A stretch of 64,000 nucleotides of DNA from Salinibacterium sp. PAMC 21357 (GTDB taxonomy: Bacteria > Actinomycetota > Actinomycetes > Actinomycetales > Microbacteriaceae). Positions 3,477 through 20,266 of this stretch are shown here, piece by piece (within the stretch, counting starts at the first letter, position 1; each line of letters begins with the position of its first letter). The translations under genes and the position numbers were made by a program. The notes under the pieces are model-generated. The model did no database searches. It was not told the DNA's origin and saw nothing but the letters and a program-made list of their open reading frames with translations. The stretch lies in assembly GCF_000247645.1 (NCBI RefSeq), contig NZ_AHWA01000006.1, positions 186,001-250,000 of the forward strand, in the 5' to 3' direction.

Positions 3477-5312
3477 ATGGCACACCTTCTTGGCGCTGAG
3501 TCCCTTCATCTTGAATTTCCGACCCGCGTAATCTTTGACAATGTCACGATCGGCCTCGACGAGGGCGACCGTATCGGCATCGTCGGTCGCAACGGTGACG
3601 GCAAAACTACCCTTATGCGGATGCTCTCGGGCAAGCTCGATCCCGACGAGGGGCGAGTCACCCGGCGCAACGGCGTCACCCTCGGCATGCTCGATCAGGC
3701 TGATGAACTCGATGGCACCAAGACCGTGCACGAGACCGTCATCGGCGATATCGATGAGCACGTGTGGGCGGGCGACCCCAAGGTTCGCGACGTCATCGCG
3801 GGTCTCGCGGCCGACATCCCGTGGGAGGCCAAAGTTGGCGATCTCTCCGGTGGCCAACGCCGTCGTGTTGCTCTTGCCGCTCTGCTTATTGGTGACTGGG
3901 ATGTCATCTTCTTGGATGAGCCCACTAACCACCTCGACGTCGAAGGTATTTCGTGGCTGGCCGGTCATCTCAAGCGTCGTTGGGGAACCAACGCCGGTGG
4001 GCTGTTGGTCGTCACTCACGACCGGTGGTTCCTCGATGAGATTTGTACTGCCACGTGGGAGGTGCACGATCGCCTGATCGAGCCTTTCGAGGGCGGTTAC
4101 GCGGCCTACATTCTGCAGCGCGTGGAGCGTGACCGCATGGCGGCCGCTTCGGAGTCGAAGCGTCAGAACCTGATGCGCAAAGAGCTCGCCTGGTTGCGCC
4201 GCGGTGCTCCCGCGCGCACGACGAAGCCGAAGTTCCGCATTGATGCCGCCAACGATTTGATTGAGAACGAGCCGCCCGCCCGCGATAGCGTCTCGCTGTC
4301 GTCCATGGCGATGCAGCGACTCGGCAAAGACGTTGTCGACCTTGAAGGTGTCACTGTCACCTACCCGGTAATCGATCCGGCAACGGGCGTTGCGGGGGAG
4401 AAGACGGTTCTCAACGACGTGACGTGGCGCATCGCTCCGGGGGAGCGCACGGGCATCCTGGGCGTCAACGGCGCCGGAAAGTCGACGCTGCTCTCGCTAG
4501 TCTCCGGAACGCTCCTGCCGACCAGCGGTCGAGTGAAGCGCGGTAAGACCATCAAGGTCGCCACCCTCACGCAGCAGCTCGCGGAGCTCGAAGATATCTG
4601 GAATGAACGTGTCAGCACGGTCATCGGTCGCCACAAGAGCACCTACGTTGCTGGTGGCAAAGAGATGACGCCCACCCAAATGTTGGAGCGCGTGGGCTTC
4701 ACGAGCGCCCAGCTGTCGACCCCGGTGAAAGATCTGTCGGGTGGCCAGAAGCGTCGTCTGCAGCTCTTACTGATCTTGCTCTCGGAGCCGAACGTTCTGA
4801 TTCTGGATGAGCCCACTAACGACCTCGACACCGACATGCTTGCCGCCATCGAAGACCTTCTCGACACCTACCCGGGCACGCTGCTCGTCGTGAGCCACGA
4901 CCGGTACCTGATCGAGCGCGTCACTGACCAGCAGTATGCGGTGATGGAGGGCGGCTTCCGTCACCTGCCGCGTGGTGTTGACCAGTATCTCGAGCTGCGC
5001 AACCAGCAGATCAAGGGCTCCACCGGCAACGCTTCTGGTGCAGCTGCGGGTGCTCCGGATGCCACGGCTGCCAAAGCGAAACCGAAGCTGGGTGGTGCCG
5101 AATTGCGCAACTCGCAGAAAGAGCACGCTGCGGCCAGCCGCAAGATCACGAAGCTGCAGAGCCAGATCACGGAGCTTCACCAGCGGATGGCCACCCACGA
5201 CCAGTCAGACTTCGCCGGTCTTGGCGCTCTCGTTGGCGAACAGCAGGCCCTTCAAGAGGCTCTCGACACTGTCGAGATGCGCTGGCTGGAGCTCGAAGAA
5301 CTTCTCGCCTAG
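3477..5312 (+). CDS. ABC-F family ATP-binding protein
   Basis: A 611-residue soluble protein with two ABC ATPase domains and no membrane segment, the hallmark of ABC-F translation factors (Uup/EttA group), which act at the ribosomal E site. Domain 1 shows GRNGDGKTT (Walker A), LSGGQRRRVALA (signature) and IFLDEPTNHLD; domain 2 shows GVNGAGKST, LSGGQKRRLQL and LILDEPTNDLD. The two are joined by a charged linker. The C-terminal 80 residues are rich in Lys, Gln and Glu and look like the Uup-type coiled coil. I place the start at ATG 3477, just beyond the ispE stop, because this gives the normal MAHLLGAESLHLEF beginning; an upstream ATG at 3405 would overlap ispE. The exact subfamily is unsure. 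Confidence 0.93.
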   Translation: MAHLLGAESLHLEFPTRVIFDNVTIGLDEGDRIGIVGRNGDGKTTLMRMLSGKLDPDEGRVTRRNGVTLGMLDQADELDGTKTVHETVIGDIDEHVWAGDPKVRDVIAGLAADIPWEAKVGDLSGGQRRRVALAALLIGDWDVIFLDEPTNHLDVEGISWLAGHLKRRWGTNAGGLLVVTHDRWFLDEICTATWEVHDRLIEPFEGGYAAYILQRVERDRMAAASESKRQNLMRKELAWLRRGAPARTTKPKFRIDAANDLIENEPPARDSVSLSSMAMQRLGKDVVDLEGVTVTYPVIDPATGVAGEKTVLNDVTWRIAPGERTGILGVNGAGKSTLLSLVSGTLLPTSGRVKRGKTIKVATLTQQLAELEDIWNERVSTVIGRHKSTYVAGGKEMTPTQMLERVGFTSAQLSTPVKDLSGGQKRRLQLLLILLSEPNVLILDEPTNDLDTDMLAAIEDLLDTYPGTLLVVSHDRYLIERVTDQQYAVMEGGFRHLPRGVDQYLELRNQQIKGSTGNASGAAAGAPDATAAKAKPKLGGAELRNSQKEHAAASRKITKLQSQITELHQRMATHDQSDFAGLGALVGEQQALQEALDTVEMRWLELEELLA

Positions 5313-5340
5313 GGGCACCGAACTGGGGTCGTGCTGGCGT

Positions 5341-5374
5341 TTTGCGCCAACACATTACCGGGTATAGTGAAAAT
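5341..5374 (+). promoter_or_regulatory. Candidate promoter upstream of the mycosin operon
   Basis: A -10-like TATAGT at 5363-5368 has a TTTGCG/TTGCGC -35-like element 15-16 bp upstream. It lies in the 229-bp gap between the ABC-F gene and the first protease gene. An ATG starts 6 bases after the -10 and opens a five-codon frame ending in TGA, which would be leaderless if transcription starts there. A 10-bp direct repeat, GTCGCCTAGT, occurs at 5377-5386 and 5424-5433. The call is by eye only. Confidence 0.3.
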
Positions 5375-5491
5375 ATGTCGCCTAGTTGAGTCTTCGCTGC
5401 GCGTCCATATTCTCCTAGGTGGTGTCGCCTAGTCAGGCTTGAGGGTCGGGCTGGGCAGGCTGCTGCGCTCGAACCTGAAAGAGGTAACCCC

Positions 5492-5545
5492 GTGGCAGTT
5501 TTCGGCCTAACCGCGCCTCGCGCAACGGATCTGGTGCGCAAGTGA
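5492..5545 (+). CDS. Possible 17-residue leader peptide coupled to the mycosin operon
   Basis: A GTG at 5492 opens a short frame, MAVFGLTAPRATDLVRK, whose TGA overlaps the GTG start of the first mycosin gene as GTGA. A good purine-rich site (GAAAGAGG) lies about 8 bases upstream of it, while the mycosin start itself has no clear ribosome-binding site. This makes translational coupling plausible. No homologue is known to me and the frame is too short for coding statistics, so it may be chance. Confidence 0.3.
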   Translation: MAVFGLTAPRATDLVRK

Positions 5546-6918
5546 AGCGCTCCGCACGATTCGCGGCGGCGACGGTTCTCGCCTCAACGCTGTTGCTATC
5601 GGGGGCGCTTCCCGCGTCGGGCCAAGACGAGGGTTCTTGGTATTTCGATGTTTTCAAGGTTGGTGCGGCGCACACGGCGGGGTTCACCGGTCAAGGTGTG
5701 AAGGTCGCTGTCATTGATGGGCAGATCAATCCGGATGTGCCGACGCTGAAGAATGCGAATCTTGAGGTGCAGGATCCGCTGTGCAAGACCGAGGGCTTCA
5801 TAGCGGATGTCCCTGCCGTATCGACAGTGGTCGAGGGCGAAGGCGAGGCGGTGCACGGCACAAATGTGGCGTCGCTCATCGTCGGCACGGGTGACGGATA
5901 TCCGGGCCAGACCGGCATAACGGGTGTCGCACCCGGTGCGACAGTGTTGTACTACGCAGCGTGGGTTGATCGAGGCAGCGAAGAAGATAGCCCCGCTCCG
6001 TACTGCTACCGAGACGAATTTGGTGGGGAATTCACTGCTATAGGCGATGATCTTCCTTCGTTTGCTATCGAGGAGGCGATGAACGATGCAATGGATGCGG
6101 GCGTGGACATCATCTCTGTCTCCGGCGGCCTCACTCCTGGCGACGAGTTGATCGCCGCGGTTGCTCGCGCTCTTCGAGAAGGCGTGATCGTTGTTGCGGC
6201 GATGCCGAACTCGCAGGCTTTCTCGATGATTTACGAGTTTCCGGCGCGGGGAAATGGTGTTGTTGCTGTGCAGGCGGTTGGTTCTGACGGCAAAATTCAG
6301 GAGAGTGTCGGATCGGTCGGCCTCGCACCGAATGCCGACAAGGACACTGTGGTGGCGGGTCCTGGGCTTGGTGTGCTCACTCAGGGTGGTCCCGACGGGT
6401 GGGAGTCACAGAGAATCGGCTACGGAACCTCGTATGCGACGCCGATTGTCGCTGGGTTTCTCGCGGTAGCCAAGAGCAAATATCCGACGGCAACCGGAAA
6501 CCAGTTGATCCAGTCGCTACTCAGAAACACCGGGGGTGTGGAACACGAGCTCAGATATGACGGTGAGAAGCTCTACGGCTACGGGATTGCGTCGATGACG
6601 GGCATGCTCGCTAGCGATCCGACCGTGTATCCCGACGAGAACCCGATAATCGATCCCAACGACGTTACTCCGTCGTATGACGAGATTTTCAATCCGGTCG
6701 AGCCCACTCCTGAGCCGGAGCTGACGGAAGAACCAGTGGATCAGCCGTCTGATCTCGACCTCACCGGCATCCTGACGGGCCTAGCGATCGCAGGTCTGAT
6801 TGGTCTTGTGGTGGTCGCCGGCATCGTGGTGCTGATCGTGGTGCTGGTGCGCCGGTCGGGAAAGAAGTCTGCCGCGATCGACCCCACCGCAGCACCCTCA
6901 GATTCGGAGAACTCATGA
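5542..6918 (+). CDS. Mycosin-like subtilisin-family (S8) membrane-anchored protease, type A1
   Basis: A 458-residue secreted serine protease. It has a signal peptide ending near PASGQ, an S8 catalytic domain with Asp59 (VAVIDGQIN), His105 (HGTNVAS), oxyanion Asn223 (VVAAMPN) and Ser297 (GTSYATP), a Pro/Glu-rich linker, and one C-terminal membrane helix (LTGLAIAGLIGLVVVAGIVV) followed by RRSGKK. This architecture is that of mycosins, the proteases of type VII secretion. Cys81 and Cys155 could form a disulfide outside the membrane. It is the first of four proteases overlapping by 4 bases each, so one transcript is likely. Type A differs from type B by the IDGQINPDVP motif and a longer insert around the second Cys. 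The substrate is unknown. Confidence 0.88.
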   Translation: MKRSARFAAATVLASTLLLSGALPASGQDEGSWYFDVFKVGAAHTAGFTGQGVKVAVIDGQINPDVPTLKNANLEVQDPLCKTEGFIADVPAVSTVVEGEGEAVHGTNVASLIVGTGDGYPGQTGITGVAPGATVLYYAAWVDRGSEEDSPAPYCYRDEFGGEFTAIGDDLPSFAIEEAMNDAMDAGVDIISVSGGLTPGDELIAAVARALREGVIVVAAMPNSQAFSMIYEFPARGNGVVAVQAVGSDGKIQESVGSVGLAPNADKDTVVAGPGLGVLTQGGPDGWESQRIGYGTSYATPIVAGFLAVAKSKYPTATGNQLIQSLLRNTGGVEHELRYDGEKLYGYGIASMTGMLASDPTVYPDENPIIDPNDVTPSYDEIFNPVEPTPEPELTEEPVDQPSDLDLTGILTGLAIAGLIGLVVVAGIVVLIVVLVRRSGKKSAAIDPTAAPSDSENS

Positions 6919-8239
6919 AGCGCGCAGCCCGACCTCTTCTTGCAACTGTTGTGGCTTCAACACTGTTGCTGTCAGGGGCATTACCTTCGTCAGCGCAGGA
7001 GGATGGCTTCTGGTATTTCGATCAGCTCGGGATTGGTGAGGTGCACGCGTCGGGGTTGACCGGGGAGGGCATCACGATTGCGGTGATGGATTCGCCTATC
7101 AATACTGATATTCCGACGTTGCGGGATGCGAACGTGACGGTTATTGAGCCGTCTCTGTGCTTTGATGAGGCGGCGCAGGACTTTTATCCGGCGGTATCGA
7201 CCGACCGCAGCGGAGTTCTCGATGCGATTCATGGCACGAATGTCGTGTCGATGATTTCGGGAACGGGTGATGGCTACCCCGGCCAGACTGGCATCAAGGG
7301 CGTTGCCCCCGACGCTGAGGTGCTTTACTACGTTGTTAATGTCACCGATGTCACTAGTGACGGTGATTCGATTGTCTGCGGTGACCCTGACGTGGGTTAT
7401 TCCGTATCCGATAATCGGCTTGGGGTAGCGATGGAAGCGGCGATGGATGCTGGAGCGGACATCATCTCGGTGTCGTCTCTGGTCAGCCCTGGCGGTCCGT
7501 GTTGACTCAGGCGATGGCTCGGGCGGTGCGTGAGGAAGTCATCATTGTTGCCGGCACTCTCAACACGACGGACATAATACTCGGGGCGGTTATGCCGGCG
7601 GGGGGAAACGGAGTTCTGGCGGTGCAAGCTGGCGGGACTAGCGTTGAGCAGATCCCAGTGGACAACATCTATACGCAAATTATTGCGCCGGGCTTGGGCG
7701 TGACCGTTCAGGGCGCTTACGGAGAGAGCTGGGAAGAGCAGGCGCTCACGAGCGGGTCGTCAATGGCGACCCCGCTGGCCGCCGGAATTCTTGCGTTGGC
7801 GATGCAAAAATATCCGGAGGCATCCCCTAACCAGTTGTTGCAGTCGCTGATTCGAAACACCAGCGGCGGTAACCCCGACGCGGTTCGGGATCAGTTCACG
7901 TACGGCTACGGTTACATCTCTTTGCGAACCCTTCTTGCTGCTGATCCGACCCAGTACTCGACCGAGAACCCGTTCGTGGTTATGAGTGACGAAGTGTCTC
8001 CCACGTTCGACGAGATCTACAACCCGGTCGAACCCACCGCTGCCCCGGAAGACTCCGCCGATCAGCCGTCTGATTTCGACCTCACCGGCATCTTGACGGG
8101 CCTAGCGGTCGCAGGCTTGATTGGTCTTGTTGTGGTCGCCGGCATCGTGGTGCTGATCGTGGTGCTGGTGCGCCGGTCAGGAAAGAAGTCTGCCGCGATC
8201 GACACCGCGGCAACGCCCTCAGATTCGGAGAACTCATGA
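6915..8239 (+). pseudogene. Mycosin-like S8 protease type B1, frameshifted
   Basis: The first part (6915-7505) encodes signal peptide, Asp (IAVMDSPIN) and His (IHGTNVVS) and then stops at SLVSPGGPC. The second part (7499-8239) carries the oxyanion Asn (IVAGTLN), Ser (GSSMATP), linker and membrane anchor. In the intact type-B genes at 9618 and 20653 the frame runs through this point as SPGG/D-x-VL. Losing one base near 7498 (GGTCCGTG here, GGTCAGGTG at 20653) explains the break, and the total length of 1325 nt is one base short of 442 codons. A GTG at 7499 overlaps the stop, so two separate chains could be made. It may be a true mutation or a sequencing error; the context is not a homopolymer. 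Confidence 0.8.
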
Positions 8240-9621
8240 TGCGCGCAGCACGACCTCTACTTGCGACTGTTGTGGTCTCAACTCTGTTGCTATCGGGGGC
8301 ATTGCCCGCGTCAGCGCAGGAGGATGGGACGTGGTATTTCGATGCCTTCAGCGTTGGTGCGGCACACACGGCGGGATTTACTGGTCAAGGGGTGAAGATC
8401 GCGGTCATTGACGCGCAAATCAATCCCGATATTCCCACGCTGAAGAATGCGAATCTTGAGGTGCAGGATCCGCTGTGCAAGACCGCGGGTTTTGAAGCCG
8501 ACGTTCCAGTTGTGTCGACTGTGGTCGCGGGTGAGAACGAGGCGGTGCACGCTACGAACGTGGTCTCGTTCATCATTGGTACTGGCGACGGATATCCGGG
8601 CCAGACAGGAGTGCAGGGTGTAGCGCCCGATGCCACGGTCTTGTTCTACTCGGCGTGGGTAGATCGGGGCAGCGAAAAAGATAGTCCAGCGCCGTACTGC
8701 TACCGCGAGGATTCTTCTACCGGCTCCGGTGAGTTCGATCCGCTTCTCTCGGATAACACTTCCGATTCGATTGCGGAAGCGATGAACGCGGCCATGGACG
8801 AAGGCGTCGACATTATCTCTATCTCCGCGGGCCTTACCCCGCACGACGCCTTGGTCGCGACGGTCGCTCGTGCACTTCGGGAGGGTGTCGTCGTGGTCGC
8901 CGCGATGCCGAACTCGCAGGCGTTTACGATGAGTTACGATTTTCCGGCGCGAGGTAACGGTGTCGTCGCCGTGCAGGCGCTTGGTGCTGACGGAAAAATT
9001 CAGGAAAGCGTAGGATCTATCGGCCTAGCGCCGAATCTTGATCAGGACACGGTGGTGGCGGGTCCTGGGCTTGCGGTCCTTACTCAGGGTGGTCCTGACG
9101 GGTGGGAGTCGCAGGAGATCGGCTACGGTACTTCGTATGCGACCCCTGTGGTTGCGAGTTTTATGGCAGTGCTGAAGAGCAAATATCCGACGGCGACTGG
9201 TAACCAGTTGATCCAGTCGTTGCTGAGGAATACCGGCGGCTCAGAGCACGATGTTCAATACGACACCACGGAAACTTTTGGTTATGGCACGGCTTCGATA
9301 ACGGGCATGCTTGCCGTTGATCCGACGGGGTATCCGGATGAGAACCCCATAATCGACCTAAACGATATCGATCCGACCTATGACGAGATTTTCAATCCGG
9401 TCGAGCCCACTCCGGAGCCGGAGCCGTCAGAGGCCTCAGCCGATCAGCCGTCCGATTCCGACGTCACGGGTGTCCTGACGGGCCTAGCGATCGCGGGCCT
9501 GATCGGCCTTGTGGCGGTCGCCGGCATTGTGGTGCTGATCGTGGTGCTGGTGCGTCGCTCAGGAAAGAAGTCTGCCGCGATCGACCCCACCGCAACGCCC
9601 TCAAATTCGGAGAACTCATGA
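8236..9621 (+). CDS. Mycosin-like S8 membrane-anchored protease, type A2
   Basis: A 461-residue paralogue of the protease at 5542, with the same order of signal peptide, S8 domain, acidic Pro/Glu linker, C-terminal membrane helix and RRSGKK tail. The catalytic Asp lies in IAVIDAQIN, Ser in GTSYATP and the oxyanion Asn in VVAAMPN. The His motif reads HATN rather than the usual HGTN, a Gly-to-Ala change next to the catalytic His that may lower activity. Two cysteines are conserved with A1 (DPLCKT and PYCYRED). Starts at 8236 and 8239 (ATGATG) are both possible; the first overlaps the preceding stop. DNA identity to A1 is high, so the A-B pair was probably duplicated as a unit. Confidence 0.87.
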   Translation: MMRAARPLLATVVVSTLLLSGALPASAQEDGTWYFDAFSVGAAHTAGFTGQGVKIAVIDAQINPDIPTLKNANLEVQDPLCKTAGFEADVPVVSTVVAGENEAVHATNVVSFIIGTGDGYPGQTGVQGVAPDATVLFYSAWVDRGSEKDSPAPYCYREDSSTGSGEFDPLLSDNTSDSIAEAMNAAMDEGVDIISISAGLTPHDALVATVARALREGVVVVAAMPNSQAFTMSYDFPARGNGVVAVQALGADGKIQESVGSIGLAPNLDQDTVVAGPGLAVLTQGGPDGWESQEIGYGTSYATPVVASFMAVLKSKYPTATGNQLIQSLLRNTGGSEHDVQYDTTETFGYGTASITGMLAVDPTGYPDENPIIDLNDIDPTYDEIFNPVEPTPEPEPSEASADQPSDSDVTGVLTGLAIAGLIGLVAVAGIVVLIVVLVRRSGKKSAAIDPTATPSNSENS

Positions 9622-10946
9622 TGCGCGCAGTTCGACCTCTTCTTGCAACTGTTGTGGCCTCGACGCTTCTGCTGTCGTCGGCACTTCCCGCGTCAGCGCA
9701 GGAGGATGGTTTCTGGTATTTCGATCAGCTAGGGATTGGTGAGGCGCACGCGTCGGGGTTGACCGGGGAGGGCATCACGATTGCGGTGATGGATTCGCCT
9801 ATCAATACTGATATTCCGACGTTGCGGGATGCGAACGTGACGGTTATCGAGCCGTCTCTGTGCTTTGATGAGGCGGCGCAGGATTTCTATCCGGCGGTAT
9901 CGACCGACCGCAGCGGAGTTCTCGACGCGATTCACGGCACCAATGTTGTGTCGATGATTTCGGGAACGGGTGATGGCTACCCCGGCCAGACTGGCATTAA
10001 GGGGGTCGCCCCCGACGCTGAGGTGCTTTACTACGTCGTTAATGTCACCGATGTCACTAGTGACGGTGATTCGATTGCCTGCGGTGACCCTGATCTGGGT
10101 TTTTCCGCTCTCGAAATCCAACTTGGCAGGGCGATGGAAGCAGCGATGGACGCTGGAGCAGACATCATCTCGGTGTCATCTCTCGTCAGCCCCGGTGATG
10201 AGGTGCTGAATCACGCGATCGCTCGGGCGGTGCGCGAGGAAGTCGTCATTGTTGCCGGCACTCTCAACACGACGGACGTAATGTTCGGGGCGGTTATGCC
10301 GGCGGGAGGAAACGGAGTTCTGGCAGTGCAAGCTGGCGGGTCTACCGGTGAGCAGATCCCGGTGCAGAACATATATACGCAAATTATTGCGCCGGGTTTG
10401 GACGTGACCGTTCAGGGCGCTTACGGAGAGAGCTGGGAAGAGCAAGAGCTCACGAGCGGATCGTCAATGGCAACCCCGCTGGCCGCGGGAATTCTCGCGT
10501 TGGCGATGCAAAAGTATCCCGAGGCTTCCCCTAACCAGTTGCTGCAGTCGCTGATTCGAAACACCAGCGGCGGTAACCCCGACGCGGTTCGGGATGAGTA
10601 CACGTACGGCTACGGTTACATCTCTTTGCGGACCCTTCTTGCTGCTGATCCAACGCAGTACTCGACGGAGAACCCCTTCGTGAGTATGGCTGACGGGTCG
10701 TATCCCACGTTCGACGAGATCTACAACCCGGTCGAACCCACCACCGCCCCGGAAGACTCCGCCGATCAGCCGTCTGATCTCGACCTCACCGGCATCTTGA
10801 CGGGCCTAGCGATCGCAGGCCTGATTGGCCTTGTGGTGCTCGCCGGCATTGTGGTGCTGATCGTGGTGCTGGTGCGTCGCTCGCGACGAAACTCCGCTGT
10901 TGCAACTACGCCATCAGCGACGGAGTCAACTCCGAAGCAGCAGTAA
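9618..10946 (+). CDS. Mycosin-like S8 membrane-anchored protease, type B2
   Basis: A 442-residue intact type-B protease and the last gene of the tandem array. It shows a signal peptide ending near PASAQ, Asp59 in IAVMDSPIN, His106 in IHGTNVVS, Asn217 in IVAGTLN, Ser283 in GSSMATP, a short linker and one C-terminal membrane helix. Its tail (RRSRRNSAVATTPS) differs from the RRSGKKSAA tail of the other three array members. Cysteines in EPSLCFDE and SIACGDP match type A positions. Long stretches are identical at DNA level to the genes at 6915 and 20653. The role is presumably trimming or quality control of secreted type VII proteins, inferred from family membership and from a relative inside the ESX locus. 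Confidence 0.87.
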   Translation: MMRAVRPLLATVVASTLLLSSALPASAQEDGFWYFDQLGIGEAHASGLTGEGITIAVMDSPINTDIPTLRDANVTVIEPSLCFDEAAQDFYPAVSTDRSGVLDAIHGTNVVSMISGTGDGYPGQTGIKGVAPDAEVLYYVVNVTDVTSDGDSIACGDPDLGFSALEIQLGRAMEAAMDAGADIISVSSLVSPGDEVLNHAIARAVREEVVIVAGTLNTTDVMFGAVMPAGGNGVLAVQAGGSTGEQIPVQNIYTQIIAPGLDVTVQGAYGESWEEQELTSGSSMATPLAAGILALAMQKYPEASPNQLLQSLIRNTSGGNPDAVRDEYTYGYGYISLRTLLAADPTQYSTENPFVSMADGSYPTFDEIYNPVEPTTAPEDSADQPSDLDLTGILTGLAIAGLIGLVVLAGIVVLIVVLVRRSRRNSAVATTPSATESTPKQQ

Positions 10947-10968
10947 CACGCGAGGGTCGGCGCGCAGT

Positions 10969-10984
10969 GGCGGCGTCAGCCGCC
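10969..10984. terminator. GC hairpin between convergent genes
   Basis: GGCGGC-GTCA-GCCGCC forms a perfect 6-bp stem in the 41-bp gap between the protease array and the convergent sensor kinase gene. There is no T tract on either side, so it is only a weak candidate for a two-way terminator. Confidence 0.3.
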
Positions 10985-10987
10985 GAG

Positions 10988-12130
10988 TCAGCTCACCGTC
11001 GTGGGCAGCGCGACGTTGAGCCTGAACCCTTCGGGGCTCTGCTCGGCGTTCACGCCGCCGCCGTGCGCTTCGACAATGCCGCGCACGATCGCAAGTCCGA
11101 GGCCTGCGCCTGCTGAGCCGCTTGACTCTTTTTCTGGGGTGCGAGCTTCGGTCGCGCGCCAGCCGATCTCAAACATGTGACTGAGGTCTTCACTAGCCAC
11201 GCCACTGCCCTGATCGAGTACCGACAGTACAAGGCTGGTGTCGTCGCGCTGGTCGGCGCTCACCAGAATCTGCGAGTCCGCGGGCGCGTACCGGATGCTG
11301 TTGGTGAGCAGATTCACGACCACGCGCGTGAGCTCGTGGGGGTCGGCCCACAGCATCCGCCCCTCCACGCCGGCATGGGTGATCTCGATGCCACGGGCCG
11401 CCGCCAGCTGCCTGACGTCAGAAACTGCATCCGACACAATATCGAGCAGTTCGATATTCTCGGGGCGAAGTTTGAGGGTTCCGCTCTGGATGAGTGAGAG
11501 CTCGAAAAGGTCATCCACGAGTCGGTTCATGGTGCCGACTTGGGTGCGGATCTGGCGTAGGTAGTCACTGGGGTCATCGACAACCCCTGCGTCGAGGGCT
11601 TCGGCGAGGGCGCTGATGCCGGTTAGGGGAGTGCGCAGGTCGTGCGAGATCCACGCGAAGAACTGGCGGCGCGAGGCATCGAGCCGAGCGATCTCGTCGC
11701 GGGCGGCAGCAAGGCGTTCGGATGCCTCCGAGAGCTGGGTAGAGACCTCAGCGACCTCTTTCCACGTGCCCGCCGCGGGCTCAACTACGTGGCCGGCACC
11801 CACTCGTTCCACGGATTCGCGCAGAGCAGCGAACGCTCGCCGCACGGCTCGTCCGCTCACGAGCGCGGCGCCGAGACTCATGAGTGCCGAGATGCCGACG
11901 ACTCCGAGCACGATCTGTAGGTCGTGGCTCGTGAAGTGCATTTGAGCGGTGATGACAACAGTGGAGAGCGCGATCGAGAGAATCGCCGCGATCACGACCA
12001 CGGTGAACTGGAACGCGATCGTTCGCCGGCGATTGAGGCGCAGCACGAGCATCGCGACGAGCATGACCGCGGCGGTGCAGACCGCGGCGGTGGCGAGAAT
12101 GAGGAGCCATTCGCTCAGGCTGAGAATCAT
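10988..12130 (-). CDS. Two-component sensor histidine kinase
   Basis: A 380-residue membrane kinase. Two N-terminal membrane helices (about residues 5-32 and 42-65) and a third hydrophobic stretch are followed by a HAMP-like linker and a HisKA domain with WISHDLRTPLTGI, where His is the phosphorylated residue. The ATPase domain has VVVNLLTNSIRYA (N box), VLDQGSGV (G1) and GAGLGLAIV (G2). It has little extracytoplasmic sequence, so it may sense the membrane or a small ligand. The start MILSLSEW at 12130 overlaps the response-regulator stop by 4 bases, so the pair is one operon. The signal is unknown; the divergent DM13/DoxX operon is a plausible target. Confidence 0.92.
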   Translation of the reverse strand: MILSLSEWLLILATAAVCTAAVMLVAMLVLRLNRRRTIAFQFTVVVIAAILSIALSTVVITAQMHFTSHDLQIVLGVVGISALMSLGAALVSGRAVRRAFAALRESVERVGAGHVVEPAAGTWKEVAEVSTQLSEASERLAAARDEIARLDASRRQFFAWISHDLRTPLTGISALAEALDAGVVDDPSDYLRQIRTQVGTMNRLVDDLFELSLIQSGTLKLRPENIELLDIVSDAVSDVRQLAAARGIEITHAGVEGRMLWADPHELTRVVVNLLTNSIRYAPADSQILVSADQRDDTSLVLSVLDQGSGVASEDLSHMFEIGWRATEARTPEKESSGSAGAGLGLAIVRGIVEAHGGGVNAEQSPEGFRLNVALPTTVS

Positions 12131-12825
12131 GCGGCATCCTTCACAGTGAAGCGGTAGCCCTTGCCCCACTCAGTGAGCAGGTAGCGCGGGTAGCGCGGTT
12201 CGGGTTCAATCTTTTCGCGCAGGCGGCGCACATGCACCGTGACGGTGGACGCTTCGCCGAAGCTCCAGCCCCACACCTCGCGCAGGATATCGTCGCGGCT
12301 GAGCACCCGGTCGGGGTTCTGCAGCAGAAACAGAAACAGCTCGTACTCGCGGGTCGTCAGCGTCATTTCGTTGCCCTCGAGCAAGATGGTGCGATGCGCC
12401 GGGTCAACGCGAAATTGGCCGAGCGTGAACGGTTCGGATGACACGTGCGAGCTGCGCGTGCGGCGCACCATGGCGTCCACGCGCAGTTGCAATTCCCGCA
12501 ACGAGAACGGTTTCGCGATGTAATCGTCAGCACCGTGTTCGAGACCATCGATGCGTTCTTCTACGGCATCCAGAGCGGTCAGCATGATGATGGGCAGTTG
12601 GGCGGATGCCGCGCGCGCCTGGCGGCACAGCTCGTCGCCGCCGACACCGGGCAGCATCCGGTCGAGGATGAGCACGTCGGGAAGGGGGCCGCGCAGAGCA
12701 TCGCGCGCCTCGATTCCGTCGCTAATGCCCGTAACGGAATATCCTCGCGCACGCAGGTATTCGCTGACAACCGAGAGCACTGTCGCATCGTCTTCCACGA
12801 TCGTGACACTCGGCTGATTTTCCAT
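12127..12825 (-). CDS. OmpR/PhoB-family response regulator
   Basis: A 232-residue regulator. The N-terminal receiver domain has the acidic pair in VTIVEDD, the phospho-acceptor Asp in LILDRMLPG, and the conserved Lys in YIAKPFSLREL. The C-terminal winged-helix DNA-binding domain is of OmpR type (TLTTREYELFLFLLQNP, then STVTVHVRRLREKIE and KGYRF). It is transcribed first, with the kinase gene overlapping its end. It is divergent from the DM13 lipoprotein gene, with 161 bp between, and that gap contains an inverted repeat at 12862-12886 that could be its binding site. Confidence 0.94.
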   Translation of the reverse strand: MENQPSVTIVEDDATVLSVVSEYLRARGYSVTGISDGIEARDALRGPLPDVLILDRMLPGVGGDELCRQARAASAQLPIIMLTALDAVEERIDGLEHGADDYIAKPFSLRELQLRVDAMVRRTRSSHVSSEPFTLGQFRVDPAHRTILLEGNEMTLTTREYELFLFLLQNPDRVLSRDDILREVWGWSFGEASTVTVHVRRLREKIEPEPRYPRYLLTEWGKGYRFTVKDAA

Positions 12826-13948: not shown

Positions 13949-13967
13949 CGCTCGACCTTCGTAGTTA

Positions 13968-14015
13968 CCTGCAGCCTCACCAATGGCCTGCAGCTCGCAG
14001 TTCGGGGGCTGCAGG
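13968..14015. repeat. Three CTGCAG-centred 8-mers forming alternative hairpins
   Basis: CCTGCAGC occurs at 13968-13975 and 13987-13994, and its reverse complement GCTGCAGG at 14008-14015, just after the DoxX-like gene. Either left copy can pair with the right one. No T tract follows, so it is at best a weak terminator. The rest of the gap to 14174 shows nothing clear. Confidence 0.35.
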
Positions 14016-14174
14016 CCGGGGTTTGCCCGCCTCGTTCGGATTCGTAATAACATAGAAAAGCTCAGTACGTTCCGGGGGTTGTGATCTCAGCCTCGCATCA
14101 TTTCTGTTCCGCATTAGCCCGACTACGAGCATCCTGACAGGATCGTGAGTACTCAACACCGAGGAGCAGGTTCG

Positions 14175-15236
14175 ATGGCCGAATATGAGCCGCAAGAGTT
14201 CGCTGCGATGATCGCGACGCTCGTGACGGTGGGCCTCCTTGGTGGCCTCGTCGTTCATGTCTGGTACGCGCTCGCGCTGGCGAAGCTGCTGCCCAAGGTC
14301 GGCGGCGAGTCCTGGAAAGCGTGGGTTCCCGTCGTCAACACGATGGAGATTCTTGACCGAGGCCGCGTGCCTAGCTGGTCGATTGTGTACCTGTTCATTC
14401 CCCTCGTGCAGTTGTATGGCATCTACCTCGTGATTCTCGCTCAACACCGCATCACTGTGCAGCTCGGCCGCGGGGCGGGCCTGACGGTTGTTGCAGCGCT
14501 GTTTCCCCCGGTCTGGGCGAGTGTGCTCGCGTGGGGCTCCAGGGCTGCCCCCGCCACCGCTGCCCACAGCAACGGCCAGCGGGCAGATCGCAATGCCGTT
14601 CTGGATGCCCCGGCCATCCAGTCTGCGCAGCCAGTGTCGTCGCCCCATTCTGACCTGTCGGGCTATGCCATGCCGGCCGCACCCCCGGTCATCCCTCCCG
14701 TTCCAGCAGTCGCCGAAGCGTCGGTCATTGCTCCCGCCCCGCCGGTCACCCAAGCTCCGGTCATTGCTCCCGCCCCGCCGGTCACCCAAACCCCAGTCGC
14801 TGTCGCTCCTCCGGTGATCAATCAGCCTCCGGTCATCGAACAACGTGCTGCCGTTGAGCTTCCTGTCGTTGAACCTCCCGCAGCTGTCCCGCCCCCGGTT
14901 ATGCAATGGTGGCTCACCGCAGATGGTGGTTTTTCGGTGGTGATCACGTCGACGACGGTGATCTTGGGGCGCAATCCAACGTCGGATCGTCCGGAGGTTC
15001 AAGCAATCGCGGTGCCGGACAGCACTCGAACGCTGTCTAAAGTGCACGCTCAGTTGGTCTTTTCCGACGGTGGTTGGCACATCACCGATCTGAATTCCAC
15101 TAACGGTGTGCTCGTTGTCGCTGTCGACGCTACGGAGCAGGCGCTGAGCACTGGCGGTTCTGCCCGCCTCGTCGAGTCTTTCGCGCTCGGCAAGGTTGGC
15201 GTTCGAGTGAGCTATACGGATGACCCGCAGCGCTAA
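14175..15236 (+). CDS. Membrane protein with C-terminal FHA domain
   Basis: A 353-residue protein. Three N-terminal membrane helices form a DUF5684-like domain (KAWVPVVNTMEILD between helices 1 and 2, as in putative signal-peptidase-like membrane proteins). A long Pro/Ala/Val linker contains a near-perfect 13-residue duplication (VIAPAPPVTQAPV, VIAPAPPVTQTPV). The C-terminus is an FHA phosphothreonine-binding domain, with GRNPTSDRP, SKVHAQL and DLNSTNGVLV. I start at ATG 14175, which has GAGGAG upstream; a GTG at 14145 is less likely. It is convergent with mycP and adjacent to the type VII locus, which contains a second membrane/FHA protein, so it may be an accessory of that system. Confidence 0.8.
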   Translation: MAEYEPQEFAAMIATLVTVGLLGGLVVHVWYALALAKLLPKVGGESWKAWVPVVNTMEILDRGRVPSWSIVYLFIPLVQLYGIYLVILAQHRITVQLGRGAGLTVVAALFPPVWASVLAWGSRAAPATAAHSNGQRADRNAVLDAPAIQSAQPVSSPHSDLSGYAMPAAPPVIPPVPAVAEASVIAPAPPVTQAPVIAPAPPVTQTPVAVAPPVINQPPVIEQRAAVELPVVEPPAAVPPPVMQWWLTADGGFSVVITSTTVILGRNPTSDRPEVQAIAVPDSTRTLSKVHAQLVFSDGGWHITDLNSTNGVLVVAVDATEQALSTGGSARLVESFALGKVGVRVSYTDDPQR

Positions 15237-15254
15237 CCTAGATTGCTAGCGTGG

Positions 15255-16559
15255 TCACGGCTTCTTGCGATTGAGGAGCCCGCCGCTAGCGGGCGGTGGC
15301 AGTTCGCTTGTCGGCCGCCGCCGATTGCGGAACACAATGATGACGGCGAGCGTGCCCAAGATTGTGAGTCCAGCAACGCCGGCGACCACCATGAGCTGTT
15401 GAGCTCCGAGCGAATCGGATGCCGCATTAGCGGGGGCGAGTGTCACCGGCTCGGCCTGCATGGCTCCGGTGCTGTCGCTGAAGAAGGCGCTGGCGGGGCC
15501 GCGGGTTGACGCATCCGGATACAGCGTCACGGCGTCGAGCGGCTGGATGATTCCCCAGCCCACGAGGTCGTCGCGGGCGTCGGGGTTCTCCCGAAGGGCG
15601 GTAGCAAGAAGGCGGTACTCCCATTGGGCCGGTGTTTCGCTGGGGTAGACCTGAGCGACGGCCGCGGCCGCAGCGCTCACGTACGCGGTCGCGAAACTTG
15701 ATGATGGCACCTCGCCGGCGTAGAGGCAGTCGCCGGCGCCCGTGGATGAGGTGAGAATCTGTGAGCCGGGAGCAGCAACGTCGATATGGGCTCCATGGAT
15801 GGAGTCTTCGGTGGCGAGCCCCCGACTATCAACGGCGGTTACCGCCAGAGCGCCCGCGTGGGCTGCGGGGTAGCGGGCTCCGTCGCTTTTCACTTCTGCG
15901 GTGGCGCGATTGCCCGCGCTCGCGACGATGAGGCTGCCGTTGGCAACGGCGTAGTCGACTGCTGCTCCCAGAGCGGGGGAGTCTGACGAGTTGCTGAGCG
16001 AAACGTTGATGATGCGTGCGCCGTTGTCTACTGCGTAGCGGATGCCGGCAGCGAGTCGCTCGCTGGTCGGCCCGAATCCTGCTTTGACGGATTCGTCGTC
16101 GGTTCCGCGATACACCCGCACTGACAAGATTTGTGCGGCGGGGGCAAGGCCGATCACTCCGGATTCCGGAATCTGGCGTGCGGCGATTTGGCCCGCAATT
16201 GCTGTTCCGTGGCCGTCGAGATCGCTGAGCCCTTGGCTGTTTTCGCCATCACCGACGAGGTTGATTCCGCCGATCACGGCGTCTCTCAGGTGGGCGTTGT
16301 TCGCGTCGACACCAGAGTCGATGACGGCGACAATGATTCCTGCACCGGTGGCACGGTTCCCGAGCGCCTCAGATTGGAGCATGGCGAGCGCTTCGGGAGC
16401 ATCAGCGCTGTAGGCCACGTTTCCCGGTGCGCATTCGCCCGCTGGTGGAGTTGCTGCGTGCGCTGTCGGCCCGGTGGCGGCAATCCCCAGACTGGCGAGG
16501 ATGACCGCCAGCGATGCGTGCACAACGCGGCGGGTGGTGAGCTGCCAGCGATAATTCAC
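15255..16559 (-). CDS. mycP: Type VII secretion mycosin protease
   Basis: A 434-residue subtilisin-family protease and the canonical mycosin of this locus. A signal peptide (about residues 10-36) precedes the S8 domain with Asp81 (IVAVIDSGVD), His117 (DLDGHGTAIAG), Asn217 (IVASAGN) and Ser288 (SSSFATAYVS); a C-terminal membrane helix (MVVAGVAGLTILGTLAVIIVF) and a basic tail follow. Mycosins are a structural part of ESX secretion complexes. The GTG start at 16559 shares one base with the TAG stop of the restored eccB frame (TAGTG), so the two genes are coupled. It is clearly different from the A/B mycosins elsewhere in the window, with the standard DSG motif rather than DGQ or DSP. Confidence 0.9.
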   Translation of the reverse strand: MNYRWQLTTRRVVHASLAVILASLGIAATGPTAHAATPPAGECAPGNVAYSADAPEALAMLQSEALGNRATGAGIIVAVIDSGVDANNAHLRDAVIGGINLVGDGENSQGLSDLDGHGTAIAGQIAARQIPESGVIGLAPAAQILSVRVYRGTDDESVKAGFGPTSERLAAGIRYAVDNGARIINVSLSNSSDSPALGAAVDYAVANGSLIVASAGNRATAEVKSDGARYPAAHAGALAVTAVDSRGLATEDSIHGAHIDVAAPGSQILTSSTGAGDCLYAGEVPSSSFATAYVSAAAAAVAQVYPSETPAQWEYRLLATALRENPDARDDLVGWGIIQPLDAVTLYPDASTRGPASAFFSDSTGAMQAEPVTLAPANAASDSLGAQQLMVVAGVAGLTILGTLAVIIVFRNRRRPTSELPPPASGGLLNRKKP

Positions 16560-17901
16560 TAGGTTCCCGGGGTGCTGGCCGCGTTCGGTGTCGAGCGCGC
16601 CGCCTCTACCGTCAACGCGGGGCCAAAGGTGAAGAACTGCAGCCACGGTTGGGGAAGTGTGGCGATGTTAGTGGTCTCGTAGCCGAGCTGGGCCACAATG
16701 TCATCATTTGCGCCGGGGATTGTGTAGGCCACTCCGGAGCCATCGATGAGATGCACACTCCGGATTCGGTGCCAGTGCCGCCTACTCTGACGAGGGCGCC
16801 TCCGCCGATGCTGACGTGTGTTCCAGGCCGAAATTCTGTGGTGGTGGTGGTGGCGGTGGCAAGCAGGGTAGAGGCGTTTCCTTCGTCGTCGTGCACGAGC
16901 AGCGCGCACGGTGGGGTCTCGGCGGCGAAACCAGAGAGCACATCGGTGGGCCATTCGTTGCCACCGGCTGGGTCAGTGGCGGTGGGTATCGCGGCGATCT
17001 CGGCGGGGCTCACTTCTCGTTCTCCGCCGAGTAATGCGCCCGAGCCAAGAAGGTATAGCTGGTACGCCAGCGGGCTGAGAGGTGCAAGTTGGCCGTCGTT
17101 GGTGAGCACGAAACGGGTGTCGGGATCGCTGCCTTGGGGATGCAGCACGGTGCCAATAACGAAATCGGTGCCGCTGAAGTCGTCACCGGCGTTGATCACC
17201 TCAAGCGGGGCGAGGGCGTCTCCCTGGGGGAAAAGATTGAGCCAACGGCCGCTGACTTCGACGGCTGCGGATGCGGTAAGCCCAACAGCACGTAAGACCG
17301 ATTCGGCTTCGGCGCTGTCGACTTCGAATCGGCGGTCACCGGCGATGACATAAATTTGGTCGTTGACGGTGACAACGGCGCCACGGTCGGTCGCGTCAAT
17401 TGGGGTGTCGTCCATCACCGCCACCGCTGATTCTGCGTCGGAGAGCGCGCAACTGGTCCACGACGAGTTGATGAGCGACTCAGGCATGGGGAGATCGTCT
17501 GGTGCACCCAGAATTCCGATGGTTGGACCGATTTCGATCCCCGCTAACGTATCGCTGTCGGTTGAGACGACCGAGAATTCGCCGGCCGGAATGATGAGGC
17601 GTGCGCTCGCGGTGTTGATGACTGGGTAGAGCACTCCTTCCATAGACACGTAGCGGGCGCCGGTGTCGCTGACAAGGATGAGGGTGTTGTCTTCCCAACC
17701 ATCAGGAAGGCCGGGGCGAATAAAGCCGTAGAACACTCCGGCGAGCAAGACCATTGCCGTGAGAGCTATGCCGGCAAAAACCGCGCGGAGCGGCTTGGCC
17801 GGTTCAAGTTCTTTGCCACCCGGCGCTCCGCCGGTGAACGCTGAGAGCAGGCGGCCGCGGCTGAACCCTTGAGCCTCGATGAGGTCTTTCTTTGATGCCA
17901 T
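16559..17901 (-). pseudogene. eccB: Type VII secretion core protein EccB, apparently frameshifted near the 3' end
   Basis: The N-terminus reads MASKKDLIEAQGFSRGRLLSAF, then one membrane helix (AVFAGIALTAMVLLAGVFYGF) and RPGLPDGWEDNTLILV, the standard EccB layout with a large extracytoplasmic domain. As read, the frame ends at 16612 in a non-homologous tail. In the +1-shifted frame the typical EccB ending appears (VHLIDGSGVAYTIPG, AQLGYETTNIATLP, WLQFFTFGPAL) and runs to a TAG at 16559 that touches the mycP start. One missing base at about 16755-16758 (GTGTGC here, GTGGTGC expected) explains it; 1343 nt is one short of 448 codons. EccB is an essential ESX membrane subunit, so the break would disable the system unless it is a sequencing error. 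Confidence 0.82.
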
Positions 17902-17909
17902 CGGAGGGC

Positions 17910-19250
17910 CTAGACAATTCCGGCGGCAATAGCGCCGAGAGGCAGCAGGATTGCCAGAATGAGGAGTTCGACGGAGTCTGCGAGCCGGGCCAGTCGCATG
18001 CGGGCCTTCGGATTAAGCAATGTAAGTCCCACCAGCACAGCTGTTGCGGCCAACAGCAGAATAAGCAGCAGTGAACGAAGTTCTGGCAGCGCTGTGGAAA
18101 CGGTAAGGCCGGTGAGCGTGAGCCCTGCCGCCCCGAGCAACATCACCACGAGCACTCCGAGGCGAGCGAAGGTTTGCCGAGATTGAAACATCATGCCGGC
18201 GAACGCGAACGCGCAGAGAAGTGCGCCGGCGACGCCCGAGGCTGCGACGAGCGGCGTGGCCAGCAACGTTGCGAGGCCAAGCGCGATGCGAAGCGACATC
18301 AAGACCCGTTGACCGGCGGCGGCGCGTGAAGCCACGTCGTTGGCGTCGATCGGCTGCGGTGGCGCAAAAACCTCAAGATCGGTTTGGGGCGAGATAACCC
18401 GAATACGGGTAGAGCTGAGTGCGACCCACGGAAGGCCGTTGGAGAGTGCCGCAATTACCGCGATCATGATGGCGTAGGGGGCGGGGTCGCCGGCGGGCAG
18501 TAGCGCCGCGATCATCGAGGTCGTGCTGAAGACTAGGCCAAAGACGATAGGGATGAGGTGAACTTCGGGGCCGTGCTGGGTGAAAGCGAGGGCTAGGCCG
18601 CCGACAACAACAGCTCCGAGACCGGCTGCGGCCAGCGGCCATCCCCAGATCGGTTCGAGGGGAACGGCAAGATAACCGCCGATAGCACCGAACAGTGCGG
18701 CGGCGAGGCCGAGGGCGTGCCCTGCCTCGGGCTGACCGGTGCGCGTCAGCACGGCTGCGGTGGCAATCAGTACTACTGCACCGCTCGCAGCAACGATGGC
18801 ACCGATGGCAAAGCCCGTGCCGGCGGTAACCAGTAGTACTGCGCACAACGCCAGAAAGCTCAGACTCACGGCAAGCGCGGTGCGCGCACCATCACGTTGG
18901 GTCCATTCGCCGTGCTGGGATGTTGTCGCGTCGATGACCGCTTCTACGATGTCGTCGTAGATGCGTGGCTCTGTAATGAGGCCGCCGCGCACGAGAGTGA
19001 CGAGCTCTCCGTCACGCACCCCTTGGCTGCCGAGTGCTAATGCCGGATCGAGTACGGTTGCGTCGGCGCGGTGAAGGGCATAACCACCGTGAGTGAGTGT
19101 GGGGTCAAGCACGCCTAGGCTGCGCGCGAATCCGGGCAGCAGCTCGATGAGCGGCACTTGTGCTGGCACACCGACATCGAGCCGTCGGCCTTCACTCACA
19201 ATGGAGATTCGAACGAGGGTTCCGCCCGAAACGATGGCCTGACTCAACAA
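17910..19250 (-). CDS. eccD: Type VII secretion integral membrane protein EccD
   Basis: A 446-residue polytopic protein. The N-terminal 90 residues form the ubiquitin-like cytosolic domain (VRISIVSEGRRLDVGVPAQV, ELLPGFARSLG), a hydrophilic linker follows, and about 11 membrane helices complete the protein. This is the EccD architecture, which builds the membrane barrel of the ESX complex. The start is TTG (19250 or 19247) after a GAGGAG site. It is first in the minus-strand operon eccD-eccB-mycP, 8 bases ahead of eccB, and divergent from the Esx genes. A second, very different EccD-like gene lies at 25510, so the membrane complex may be a heteromer. Confidence 0.85.
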   Translation of the reverse strand: MLSQAIVSGGTLVRISIVSEGRRLDVGVPAQVPLIELLPGFARSLGVLDPTLTHGGYALHRADATVLDPALALGSQGVRDGELVTLVRGGLITEPRIYDDIVEAVIDATTSQHGEWTQRDGARTALAVSLSFLALCAVLLVTAGTGFAIGAIVAASGAVVLIATAAVLTRTGQPEAGHALGLAAALFGAIGGYLAVPLEPIWGWPLAAAGLGAVVVGGLALAFTQHGPEVHLIPIVFGLVFSTTSMIAALLPAGDPAPYAIMIAVIAALSNGLPWVALSSTRIRVISPQTDLEVFAPPQPIDANDVASRAAAGQRVLMSLRIALGLATLLATPLVAASGVAGALLCAFAFAGMMFQSRQTFARLGVLVVMLLGAAGLTLTGLTVSTALPELRSLLLILLLAATAVLVGLTLLNPKARMRLARLADSVELLILAILLPLGAIAAGIV

Positions 19251-19535
19251 AGCTCCTCGGGGTTATTGCCACAGCGTCGGCGCTGGCGCACGGCGTGGAT
19301 CAAGATTGACTGTTACTCACAGTCTAGCGACCATGCTAGTACGCGGGGGAGGCTCAATTGCGTAGGATAACCCCAATAGTGGGGGTTGGCCGCAACGTTA
19401 ATCGTGTTGTGGCTAATCTACCTAGTGCTCTATCGTGAGTTTGTGTAGCTTTTTGTTTCAAGTCGGGTGAAGCGAGAATTTCGCGTGTTGTCTGGGGCAA
19501 TCCGGGCGAGATGCGACTAATGAAGGAGTGTGAGC
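19251..19535. promoter_or_regulatory. Divergent control region between eccD and the Esx genes
   Basis: This 285-bp gap separates the two divergent halves of the secretion locus. It contains a TTGACT within an inverted repeat (GACTGT/ACAGTC, 19308-19324), a hairpin AACCCC/GGGGTT (19369-19387), and a candidate promoter TTGTGG-18 bp-TATCGT (19407-19436) about 100 bp ahead of the first Esx start. All were found by eye; the last is the best guess for Esx transcription. No gene is seen in the gap. Confidence 0.4.
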
Positions 19536-19853: not shown

Positions 19854-19882
19854 TCGACCATCGTTTCGAGAGAGGTTTAATC

Positions 19883-20173: not shown

Positions 20174-20192
20174 CTATTTTCGCTGGCAGTGT

Positions 20193-20224
20193 TGCCCGGT
20201 CAGACTTCGCAGTCTGACCGGGCA
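20193..20224 (+). terminator. Perfect 14-bp hairpin after the Esx pair (attenuator or mRNA-stabilising element)
   Basis: TGCCCGGTCAGACT at 20193-20206, loop TCGC, and AGTCTGACCGGGCA at 20211-20224 form an uninterrupted GC-rich stem. No T tract follows, and the downstream genes read in the same direction with no obvious promoter, so it is more likely partial termination or a 3' barrier to RNA decay that keeps Esx expression above the rest of the operon. Confidence 0.65.
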
Positions 20225-20266
20225 CTCGCACGCCAACTAGTCGCAGCATTTTAGAGAGGTGCGCAC

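Follow-up and report, generated by a model that had tools for sequence, protein, structure and literature searches.

We analyzed a 64,000-nucleotide stretch of DNA (the window) from Salinibacterium sp. PAMC 21357 (contig NZ_AHWA01000006.1, positions 186,001 to 250,000), which carries an operon of four S8 subtilase genes, A1, B1, A2, and B2, about 4.3 kb from mycP, the mycosin gene of an ESX (type VII secretion) locus. Another gene of the same protease family, B3, lies inside that locus between the genes of two proteins that we label U and W1. We put at about one in two the probability that amplification of a protease which normally belongs to a U-protease-W1 cassette of MycP-class type VII loci gave rise to the operon, without the partner genes, and that the operon products trim W1-like exported proteins. 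Our data suggest that one secretion-linked protease was copied and diversified in this bacterium, not that a two-part enzyme was invented.

The protease operon

The operon is encoded on the + strand and comprises A1 (5542 to 6918, 458 amino acids), B1 (6915 to 8239), A2 (8236 to 9621, 461 amino acids), and B2 (9618 to 10946, 442 amino acids), with 4-base overlaps between neighbors (6915 to 6918, 8236 to 8239, and 9618 to 9621). A first-pass annotation of this DNA, made from the sequence alone, had described four S8 genes in the order A-B-A-B outside the type VII locus, and we confirmed the coordinates, the overlaps, and the position outside the locus, although mycP is close by, with four resident genes and the FHA gene of the ESX locus in between. 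The two types are distinct, as claimed: type A has the motifs IDGQIN (A1; IDAQIN in A2) and GTSYATP, type B has MDSPIN and GSSMATP, and the synonymous divergence (dS) between the cores of the two types is 1.3 to 2.1.

A1, A2, B2, and B3 match Pfam family PF00082 (Peptidase_S8) with 99.8, 86.4, 84.5, and 87.4 bits, respectively (gathering cut-off 21.8). In the alignment of the protease family all four have the catalytic Asp, His, and Ser and the oxyanion Asn, at positions that we take to be those of subtilisin. Judged by hydropathy alone, A1, A2, and B2 have a signal-like N-terminus, that is, a hydrophobic stretch behind basic residues, and end in a hydrophobic helix (Kyte-Doolittle 3.2 to 3.3) followed by RR; B3 likewise has a signal-like N-terminus and a C-terminal anchor. 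The host genome, with 3.11 Mb in 6 contigs, gives nine PF00082 matches, which represent eight genes: five full genes and B1, in two pieces, in the window, and two genes elsewhere (C1:258130 and C3:461652; C, G, and L numbers are our handles for contigs, genomes, and loci). Of these two proteases outside the window, L002 (G000 C3:461652-463109) and L001 (C1:258130-258903), one lies in an open frame of 1217 residues and one groups with an S8 protein of genus-mates.

A frameshift near 7490 to 7505 breaks B1 into two open reading frames (ORFs). The N-terminal piece (6915 to 7505, 196 amino acids) has the Asp and His but neither the Ser nor the anchor, and the C-terminal piece (7499 to 8239, 246 amino acids) has the Ser and the anchor but no signal peptide; both are above the PF00082 cut-off, with 35.7 and 44.8 bits. 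The signal peptide and anchor that had been predicted for all four proteins are thus seen, by hydropathy, in A1, A2, and B2 and are split in B1, and the six S8 proteases counted in the window are six loci, five of them intact. Purifying selection is still visible in the cores of the B1 pieces when they are compared with B2 and B3 (w of 0.12 to 0.23). B1 is either a recent casualty or an assembly error. Other genomes contain B1-like short or broken additional protease copies beside intact ones, namely L175 (5440 to 6530, in G236), L177 (14229 to 15269, in G272), and L178 (15332 to 16054, in G162).

The fold predicted for B2, in a run with five window proteins as input, has low confidence (pLDDT 51.8, pTM 0.58). 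Its PDB neighbors, among 50 matches listed, are mostly bacterial subtilisins, along with PatA/PagA proteases, and include no mycosin; with such a weak model, these matches support no more than a subtilisin fold. Searching a collection of genome contigs with B2 identified a single distant S8 locus, in a Bacteroidales metagenome-assembled genome (26% identity), and a plasmid search with B3 gave no match at an E-value of 1e-15 or below. Promoter and terminator scans were not used further: the former gave 1 site in the operon, against a chance expectation of 1.8, and the latter gave 10 terminator-like sites, against 4.1 expected, all within operon genes.

A 17-codon ORF with a GTG start and an AGAGG-like site upstream (5492 to 5545) overlaps the A1 start codon by 4 bases, the same coupling as that of U to B3. 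It could be a leader peptide or a chance ORF.

Co-occurrence of the protease with MycP-class type VII secretion

We searched 398 genomes of the host's taxonomic family for the protease (E-value of ≤1e-20) and for MycP (E-value of ≤1e-40). The protease was found in 33 genomes and MycP in 25; 24 genomes had both, 1 had MycP only (G330), 9 had the protease only, and 364 had neither (Fisher P = 4.8e-30). P values overstate the independence of these related genomes, and the tally at the genus level is the fairer count; here, 13 of 85 genera had both, 1 had MycP only, 2 had the protease only, and 69 had neither (P = 1.9e-12). The 1e-20 limit was chosen after the hits had been viewed, at the gap between best E-values of 1.9e-23 (G353) and 1.2e-16 (G350); a looser protease limit of 1e-10 changes the four counts to 24, 1, 38, and 335 (P = 1.1e-20). 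Four candidates per genome were scored in the protease search, which makes our copy numbers lower bounds.

Of the 24 genomes with both, 23 have the protease at a distance of no more than 20 kb from mycP or eccC (median, about 4.5 kb). The proposed link to type VII secretion is supported by the co-occurrence with MycP-class ESX and by the location of most proteases inside or near ESX loci. The premise that a type VII locus carries one mycosin does not fit this family, in which 24 of 25 MycP genomes also carry a protease of the second type.

The 25 MycP genomes are those with EccC at ≥49% identity. Another 31 genomes have an EccC match (E-value of ≤1e-150), 30 of them at 35 to 43% identity and one as a 392-residue fragment at 65%. 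None of these 31 has MycP at the 1e-40 limit, beyond which more distant MycPs are possible, and 1 has the protease; this second EccC group is perhaps a different type VII class within the same family. In a narrower search of 99 relatives, the host genome included, A1 as the query found 12 genomes (E-value of ≤1e-10), MycP found 10 (E-value of <1e-80), and EccC found 11 (E-value of 0). The protease was present in all 10 MycP genomes and, without such a MycP, in G025 and G060, and G069 has EccC and a nearby distant match to the MycP query (E-value of 1.2e-32) and no protease.

The U-protease-W1 cassette

We read the gene neighborhoods of 27 genomes with both MycP and the protease (all of the 24 in the family count except G166, plus G004, G015, G072, and G076) and, over 16 to 20 kb each, those of 11 genomes with the protease only (the nine of the family count, G025, and G060). 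W1 directly adjoins at least one protease gene in all 27 of the former (in G337, as judged across the join of two stretches), and W1 was found around the proteases in none of the 11 latter. The loci read contain 36 W1 places at an E-value of <1e-10, 34 of which adjoin a protease; the two exceptions are the W1 of G330 and a second W1 in G337. The common arrangement is U-protease-W1, with genes that overlap or are separated by short gaps; an upstream U was recognized in most but not all cases, and in G046, G224, G273, and G353 (genus g21) it is W1 that lies upstream.

The window has the common order. U (20267 to 20656, + strand), a small protein with an S/P-rich tail, overlaps the start of B3 (20653 to 21966, + strand) by 4 bases, and W1 (21953 to 23242, + strand; ATG at 21953) has a WXG100-type head and a long Gly/Ser/Ala-rich tail. 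B3 is encoded within the ESX locus, between U and W1, whereas the operon genes are outside, in a separate accessory block. Judged from these gene orders and sequences, B3 is the conserved cassette member here and the operon is a protease-only expansion of its lineage. Additional protease copies frequently lack their own W1 in other genomes as well (G043, G112, G162, G182, G272, G314, and G356). G162 and G272 have two tandem cassettes and additional proteases, G314 has one cassette followed by two additional proteases, and G045 has scattered cassettes and an ESX stretch without the protease. Of the five scattered copies in G045 (L038, L039, L041, L042, and L043), three are almost the same in sequence, and two of the three lie close to contig ends; four copies are followed by W1, and the fifth, L039, is truncated at the end of its contig.

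Beyond the family, in 221 genomes of the taxonomic class, the protease profile matched 55 genomes (E-value of ≤1e-30), many of them probably through other S8 enzymes. The W1 profile (E-value of ≤1e-8) matched four places in three genomes, all four directly beside a protease of this family. We also read the surroundings of the protease at six more places, in five genomes that belong to three other taxonomic families. ORFs resembling EccD, MycP, and WXG100 or W1 surround the protease in G464 (C1:2020718) and G529; MycP-like, EccD-like, and W1-like ORFs surround the place in G478, where the protease itself is masked by a longer ORF; a second place in G464 (C1:4013085) has a weak W1-like neighbor; and the protease surroundings in G534 and G541 contain none of these ORFs.

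The head of W1 looks like a WXG100 domain. A profile of 26 rows (L184 was excluded as out of frame, and the profile carries two residues upstream of the true W1 start) matched EsxA (3zbh, E-value of 0.001) and EsxB (1wa8, E-value of 0.005) as the first natural proteins in the PDB; a designed coiled coil ranks second, and EspB is absent from the match list of this profile. Pfam WXG100 is matched by 13 of the 26 members at an E-value of ≤0.1 (best, 6.4e-07). The single-sequence fold of the W1 head was unusable (pLDDT 44.7). The U family profile (21 members) shows weak similarity to EspC in 3 of the 21 members and matches EsxA with an E-value of 0.04, below chance matches to coiled coils.

Mosaic structure and selection

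The type B genes B1, B2, and B3 are 81 to 100% identical in nucleotide sequence throughout the core (100-column windows), whereas B3 is only about 50% identical to the operon genes in the signal and anchor regions. Core dS is 0.23 for B2-B3, 0.16 to 0.31 between the B1 pieces and B2 or B3, and 1.03 for A1-A2. In the tail, dS is 0.16 to 0.49 among the operon genes, with A-B comparisons included, and is saturated or nearly so toward B3. Third-position identity in the core and the tail, respectively, is 0.39 and 0.67 for A1-B2 (P = 1.3e-4), 0.37 and 0.67 for A2-B2 (P = 2.6e-5), 0.39 and 0.90 for the B1 C-terminal piece and A1 (P = 2.5e-11), 0.56 and 0.79 for A1-A2 (P = 7.5e-4), and, in the opposite direction, 0.84 and 0.27 for B2-B3 (P = 1.4e-15). 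Hence, the operon genes share a signal-and-anchor shell across the two types, and the type B cores are shared with B3 of the ESX locus. The simplest reading of these sequence contrasts is repeated recombination, presumably with gene conversion of the B core between the operon and the ESX locus.

Could the operon be a neutral or selfish amplification in decay, produced by unequal crossing-over at the near-identical tail and signal regions, with copies later lost? The operon contains 300-base repeats, 86 to 88% identical, across each tail-to-signal junction, B1 is broken, and the short or broken extra copies in G236, G272, and G162 would fit the same course. However, core dN/dS is 0.13 for A1-A2, 0.22 for B2-B3, and 0.24 to 0.36 between intact A and B genes, values low enough to indicate that types A and B are both kept by selection, and three of the four copies are intact, with their catalytic residues. 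We therefore consider that decay is an unlikely account of the operon.

Ancestry of types A and B

Our tree contained 86 S8 proteins, 59 of this protease family and 27 MycP or other S8 proteins; from the initial 96 S8 ORFs we had dropped nine with <260 matched residues, including both B1 pieces, and L042, a near-copy of L041 and L039. The protease family is split from the MycP rows (support, 99). A1, A2, B2, and B3 form one clade (support, 99), divided into (A1,A2) and (B2,B3), and none of the other genomes among the 59 proteases has an A/B pair. Paralogues cluster within their own genome in G043, G112, G113, G182, and G314 and within their own genus in G162 and G272; in G356, two copies are close to each other and the third is grouped with a protein of G274, and the paralogues of G274, G045, and G296 are partly or wholly spread in the tree. 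This clustering within genomes and genera indicates that multicopy sets arose repeatedly and that the A/B split is private to the Salinibacterium lineage studied here.

The first-pass annotation had proposed that A and B act as an obligate pair and that this pair was duplicated, and it had named independent occurrence of A and B in most relatives as an observation that would refute this. Such independence is what we see, in the sense that the relatives carry a single, undivided type, in one or several copies, and the tree and the unequal core dS speak against both the obligate pair and its simple duplication. The core dS of A1-A2 (1.03) is some fivefold higher than that of B1-B2 (about 0.2), and a single duplication of the pair fails to account for this unless the B genes were later homogenized with B3. 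In its broader form, the proposal is that A and B form an obligate hetero-oligomer (a dimer or a mixed ring or cap) whose A-B unit was duplicated. The strict A-B-A-B alternation of overlapping genes, the regular repeat spacing in the operon (2694 to 2703 bases for A-A and 2704 bases for B-B), and the conserved catalytic residues and purifying selection in both types would suit such a complex. Against this, B3 stands in its locus without an A neighbor, one of the two operon B copies is broken, multicopy relatives show no alternating types in the tree, and the privacy of the A/B split and the dS values apply here as well. We regard an obligate hetero-oligomer with this history as very improbable.

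In the 59-member family the catalytic Ser is aligned in all 59 proteins, His in 57 (2 gaps), Asp in 53 (4 Glu, 2 gaps), and Asn in 56. The four proteins with Glu at the catalytic Asp position (L048, L197, L199, and L200) belong to genus g21 and may be misaligned or may be altered enzymes. Internal stops suspected in relatives (e.g., G004, G025, and G102) fit the terminal stop, and the ORFs are open.

Proposed function of the proteases

What would a bacterium gain from several subtilases of this kind? We hypothesize that the proteases are exported by Sec and that the C-terminal helix holds them at the outer face of the membrane, which would place the catalytic domain in the space reached by W1-type proteins after their export via EccC. 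There, they would cleave exported proteins of the W1 type, probably within the long flexible tail, much as EspB is cleaved by MycP1. On the model of this known pair, labor may be divided between MycP as a component of the secretion complex and the second protease as the enzyme that cuts exported W1-type proteins. Gene conversion would keep type B at the specificity of B3 and raise its dose, and type A may have diverged to a second specificity. On this analogy, the proteases most likely trim W1-like proteins at the cell surface once these have been exported, and would do so with two specificities. What the sequences show is the gene neighborhood, the linkage, the ancestry, the mosaic structure, the selection, and the accessory blocks; the topology in vivo, the substrate, the cut site, and the role of gene conversion are inferred.

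Several observations weigh against the operon being an amplified, partner-less set of the cassette protease. The operon is known from one genome and lacks U and W1, which leaves B3 as the guide to its substrate. Nor is W1 always tied to the protease: in the ESX locus of G330 (L274, 7643 to 8954) U directly adjoins W1, without an intervening protease gene, and G337 has a second W1 at 1.4 kb from the protease of that genome. In G045 all proteases are away from the ESX locus, the nearest by 42.6 kb. The W1 head of the window matches Pfam WXG100 with an E-value of only 0.053, below its cut-off. The W1 model was seeded mainly with protease-adjacent ORFs, and the loci read were picked around proteases; the class-wide W1 search is least affected by this seeding, but its four matches are the W1 of the window and those of genomes that had already been read. 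In an approximately unbiased (AU) test of the affiliation with mycosins within the S8 proteases, a grouping of the A/B family and MycP together against other S8 proteins, with L140 and L141 excluded from the outside group, was not rejected (P = 0.415); the test is weak because the "other S8" rows were recruited by the MycP query and may contain distant mycosins, such as that of G069 near its eccC. Finally, 9 of the 33 protease genomes of the family have no MycP match, and hence the protease can exist without MycP-class ESX.

The last point also bears on a different possibility, that the operon is a surface proteolysis set which derives from the ESX-locus protease but works independently of type VII secretion, in nutrition, protein quality control, or attack on foreign proteins. 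The protease surroundings in those nine genomes are without W1, as is the operon, which also lacks U. On the other hand, a distance of just 4.3 kb separates the operon from mycP in the sole genome that carries it, and the apparent homogenization of its B cores with B3 inside the locus suggests a shared target. Such independence from secretion appears unlikely to us, if conceivable.

The reading of the operon as an amplified set of the cassette protease could be extended. U-protease-W1 might be a second, previously undescribed dedicated cassette of actinobacterial MycP-class systems, which matures or releases one exported WXG100 protein. In Salinibacterium sp. PAMC 21357 its protease would have been multiplied into a chimeric operon with two specificities on a shared signal-and-anchor scaffold, with gene conversion tying one of them to the in-locus enzyme, and the products might even surround the secretion channel on its outer side as a mixed cap or sheath. 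We consider this extended version, taken as a whole, speculative and rather doubtful.

Relation to known mycosins

With MycP1 to MycP5 (TIGR03921), the A/B proteases share the S8 fold and catalytic residues, the signal-like stretch, the C-terminal membrane helix, and the linkage to a locus with EccB, EccC, and EccD. TIGR03921 is also their best NCBIfam match, with 119.8 (A1), 110.9 (A2), 119.8 (B2), and 114.8 bits (B3), all under the cut-off of 278.75, as is MycP of the ESX locus in the window (244.3 bits). In contrast to MycP1 to MycP5, the A/B proteases score only 111 to 120 bits and have a separate MycP in the same locus, their family has two invariant cysteines (C82 and C155 of B3) and the consensus GxGxxGxxGVxGxAPGA in a 17-row alignment, it adjoins W1 and not eccB, and it is split from the MycP rows in trees.

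According to the text of PMC5082899 available to us, EspB, which is cut by MycP1, was the sole known substrate of any mycosin at the time of that paper, and mycosin protease activity is dispensable for export, while MycP stabilizes the ESX membrane complex. MycP1 and EspB are our working analogy: as far as that text goes, a membrane-held subtilase and an exported protein are linked there in one ESX system (PMC5082899). Here, by contrast, the enzyme is a second one besides MycP, lies directly beside its putative substrate W1, and is known from genes alone. Part of PMC3482391 has a mycosin-like protease near WXG-type polymorphic toxins, in one table line for the Ntox38 entry. That entry resembles our case in placing a mycosin-like subtilase near type VII-exported proteins and differs from it as a line on toxin genes, which in the part available contains neither a U-protease-W1 cassette nor a protease-only operon (PMC3482391). 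Our literature search, in which subscription journals were thinly covered, turned up neither a report of U-protease-W1 nor one of any other second protease cassette that accompanies MycP in Actinobacteria. Thus, within the literature covered, S8 proteases tied to type VII secretion were already known and a second cassette beside MycP is apparently undescribed.

Mycosins have structural and proteolytic jobs at once, and in the loci described here these jobs seem to be split over two enzymes. A second enzyme beside its likely substrate would be a clean natural system in which to study the role of proteolysis in type VII secretion, and the operon offers a natural set of variants, with two cores on the same scaffold.

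Two accessory blocks in the genus

Among 26 genus-mates searched, seven (G025, G010, G026, G006, G011, G001, and G020) have the orthologous histidine kinase gene (85 to 96% identity). In all seven an ABC-F gene lies directly beside the kinase gene, the gene at 32125 comes next after the DoxX gene, and the remainder is collinear. The site was read in these seven kinase-bearing genus-mates; those without that kinase include G017, G005, and G012, whose ABC-F gene is 92 to 94% identical. In the window, two-component genes lie at 10988 to 12825. This double empty site identifies the operon and the ESX locus as two accessory blocks, at sites 3 kb apart: the protease operon (5313 to 11000, 5.7 kb) and the whole ESX locus (13950 to 32125, 18 kb) are each missing in the same 7 of 7 genomes. 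The G+C content is 59.1% in the operon, 62.5 to 63.2% in the left flank and the kinase-DoxX genes, and 59.9 to 60.5% in the right part of the window. No tRNA gene was found at the borders of either block; one tRNA-Gln gene lies at 33892. At the left border of the operon block, between the end of the ABC-F gene and A1 (5306 to 5440), TCGCCTAG occurs three times, together with the related CTCCTAGG.

Other genes of the ESX locus

The ESX locus spans 14145 to 32128 and starts with the gene for the FHA protein. On the - strand follow mycP (15255 to 16646), eccB (16612 to 17901; Pfam T7SS_ESX1_EccB, E-value of 3e-49), and a first copy of eccD with a YukD domain (17910 to 19250). The + strand encodes two WXG100 proteins upstream of U, Esx protein 1 (19530 to 19853) and Esx protein 2 (19883 to 20173). 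Downstream of W1, it encodes two further proteins that we label W2 (23239 to 24279), with a Pro/Glu-rich stretch, and W3 (24123 to 25103), which is WXG100_2/PPE-like and whose real start is probably downstream of the ORF start. A second copy of eccD (25510 to 26895), an RDD-FHA protein gene (26811 to 28160), and the gene for the EccC ATPase (28160 to 32128), all on the + strand, complete the locus.

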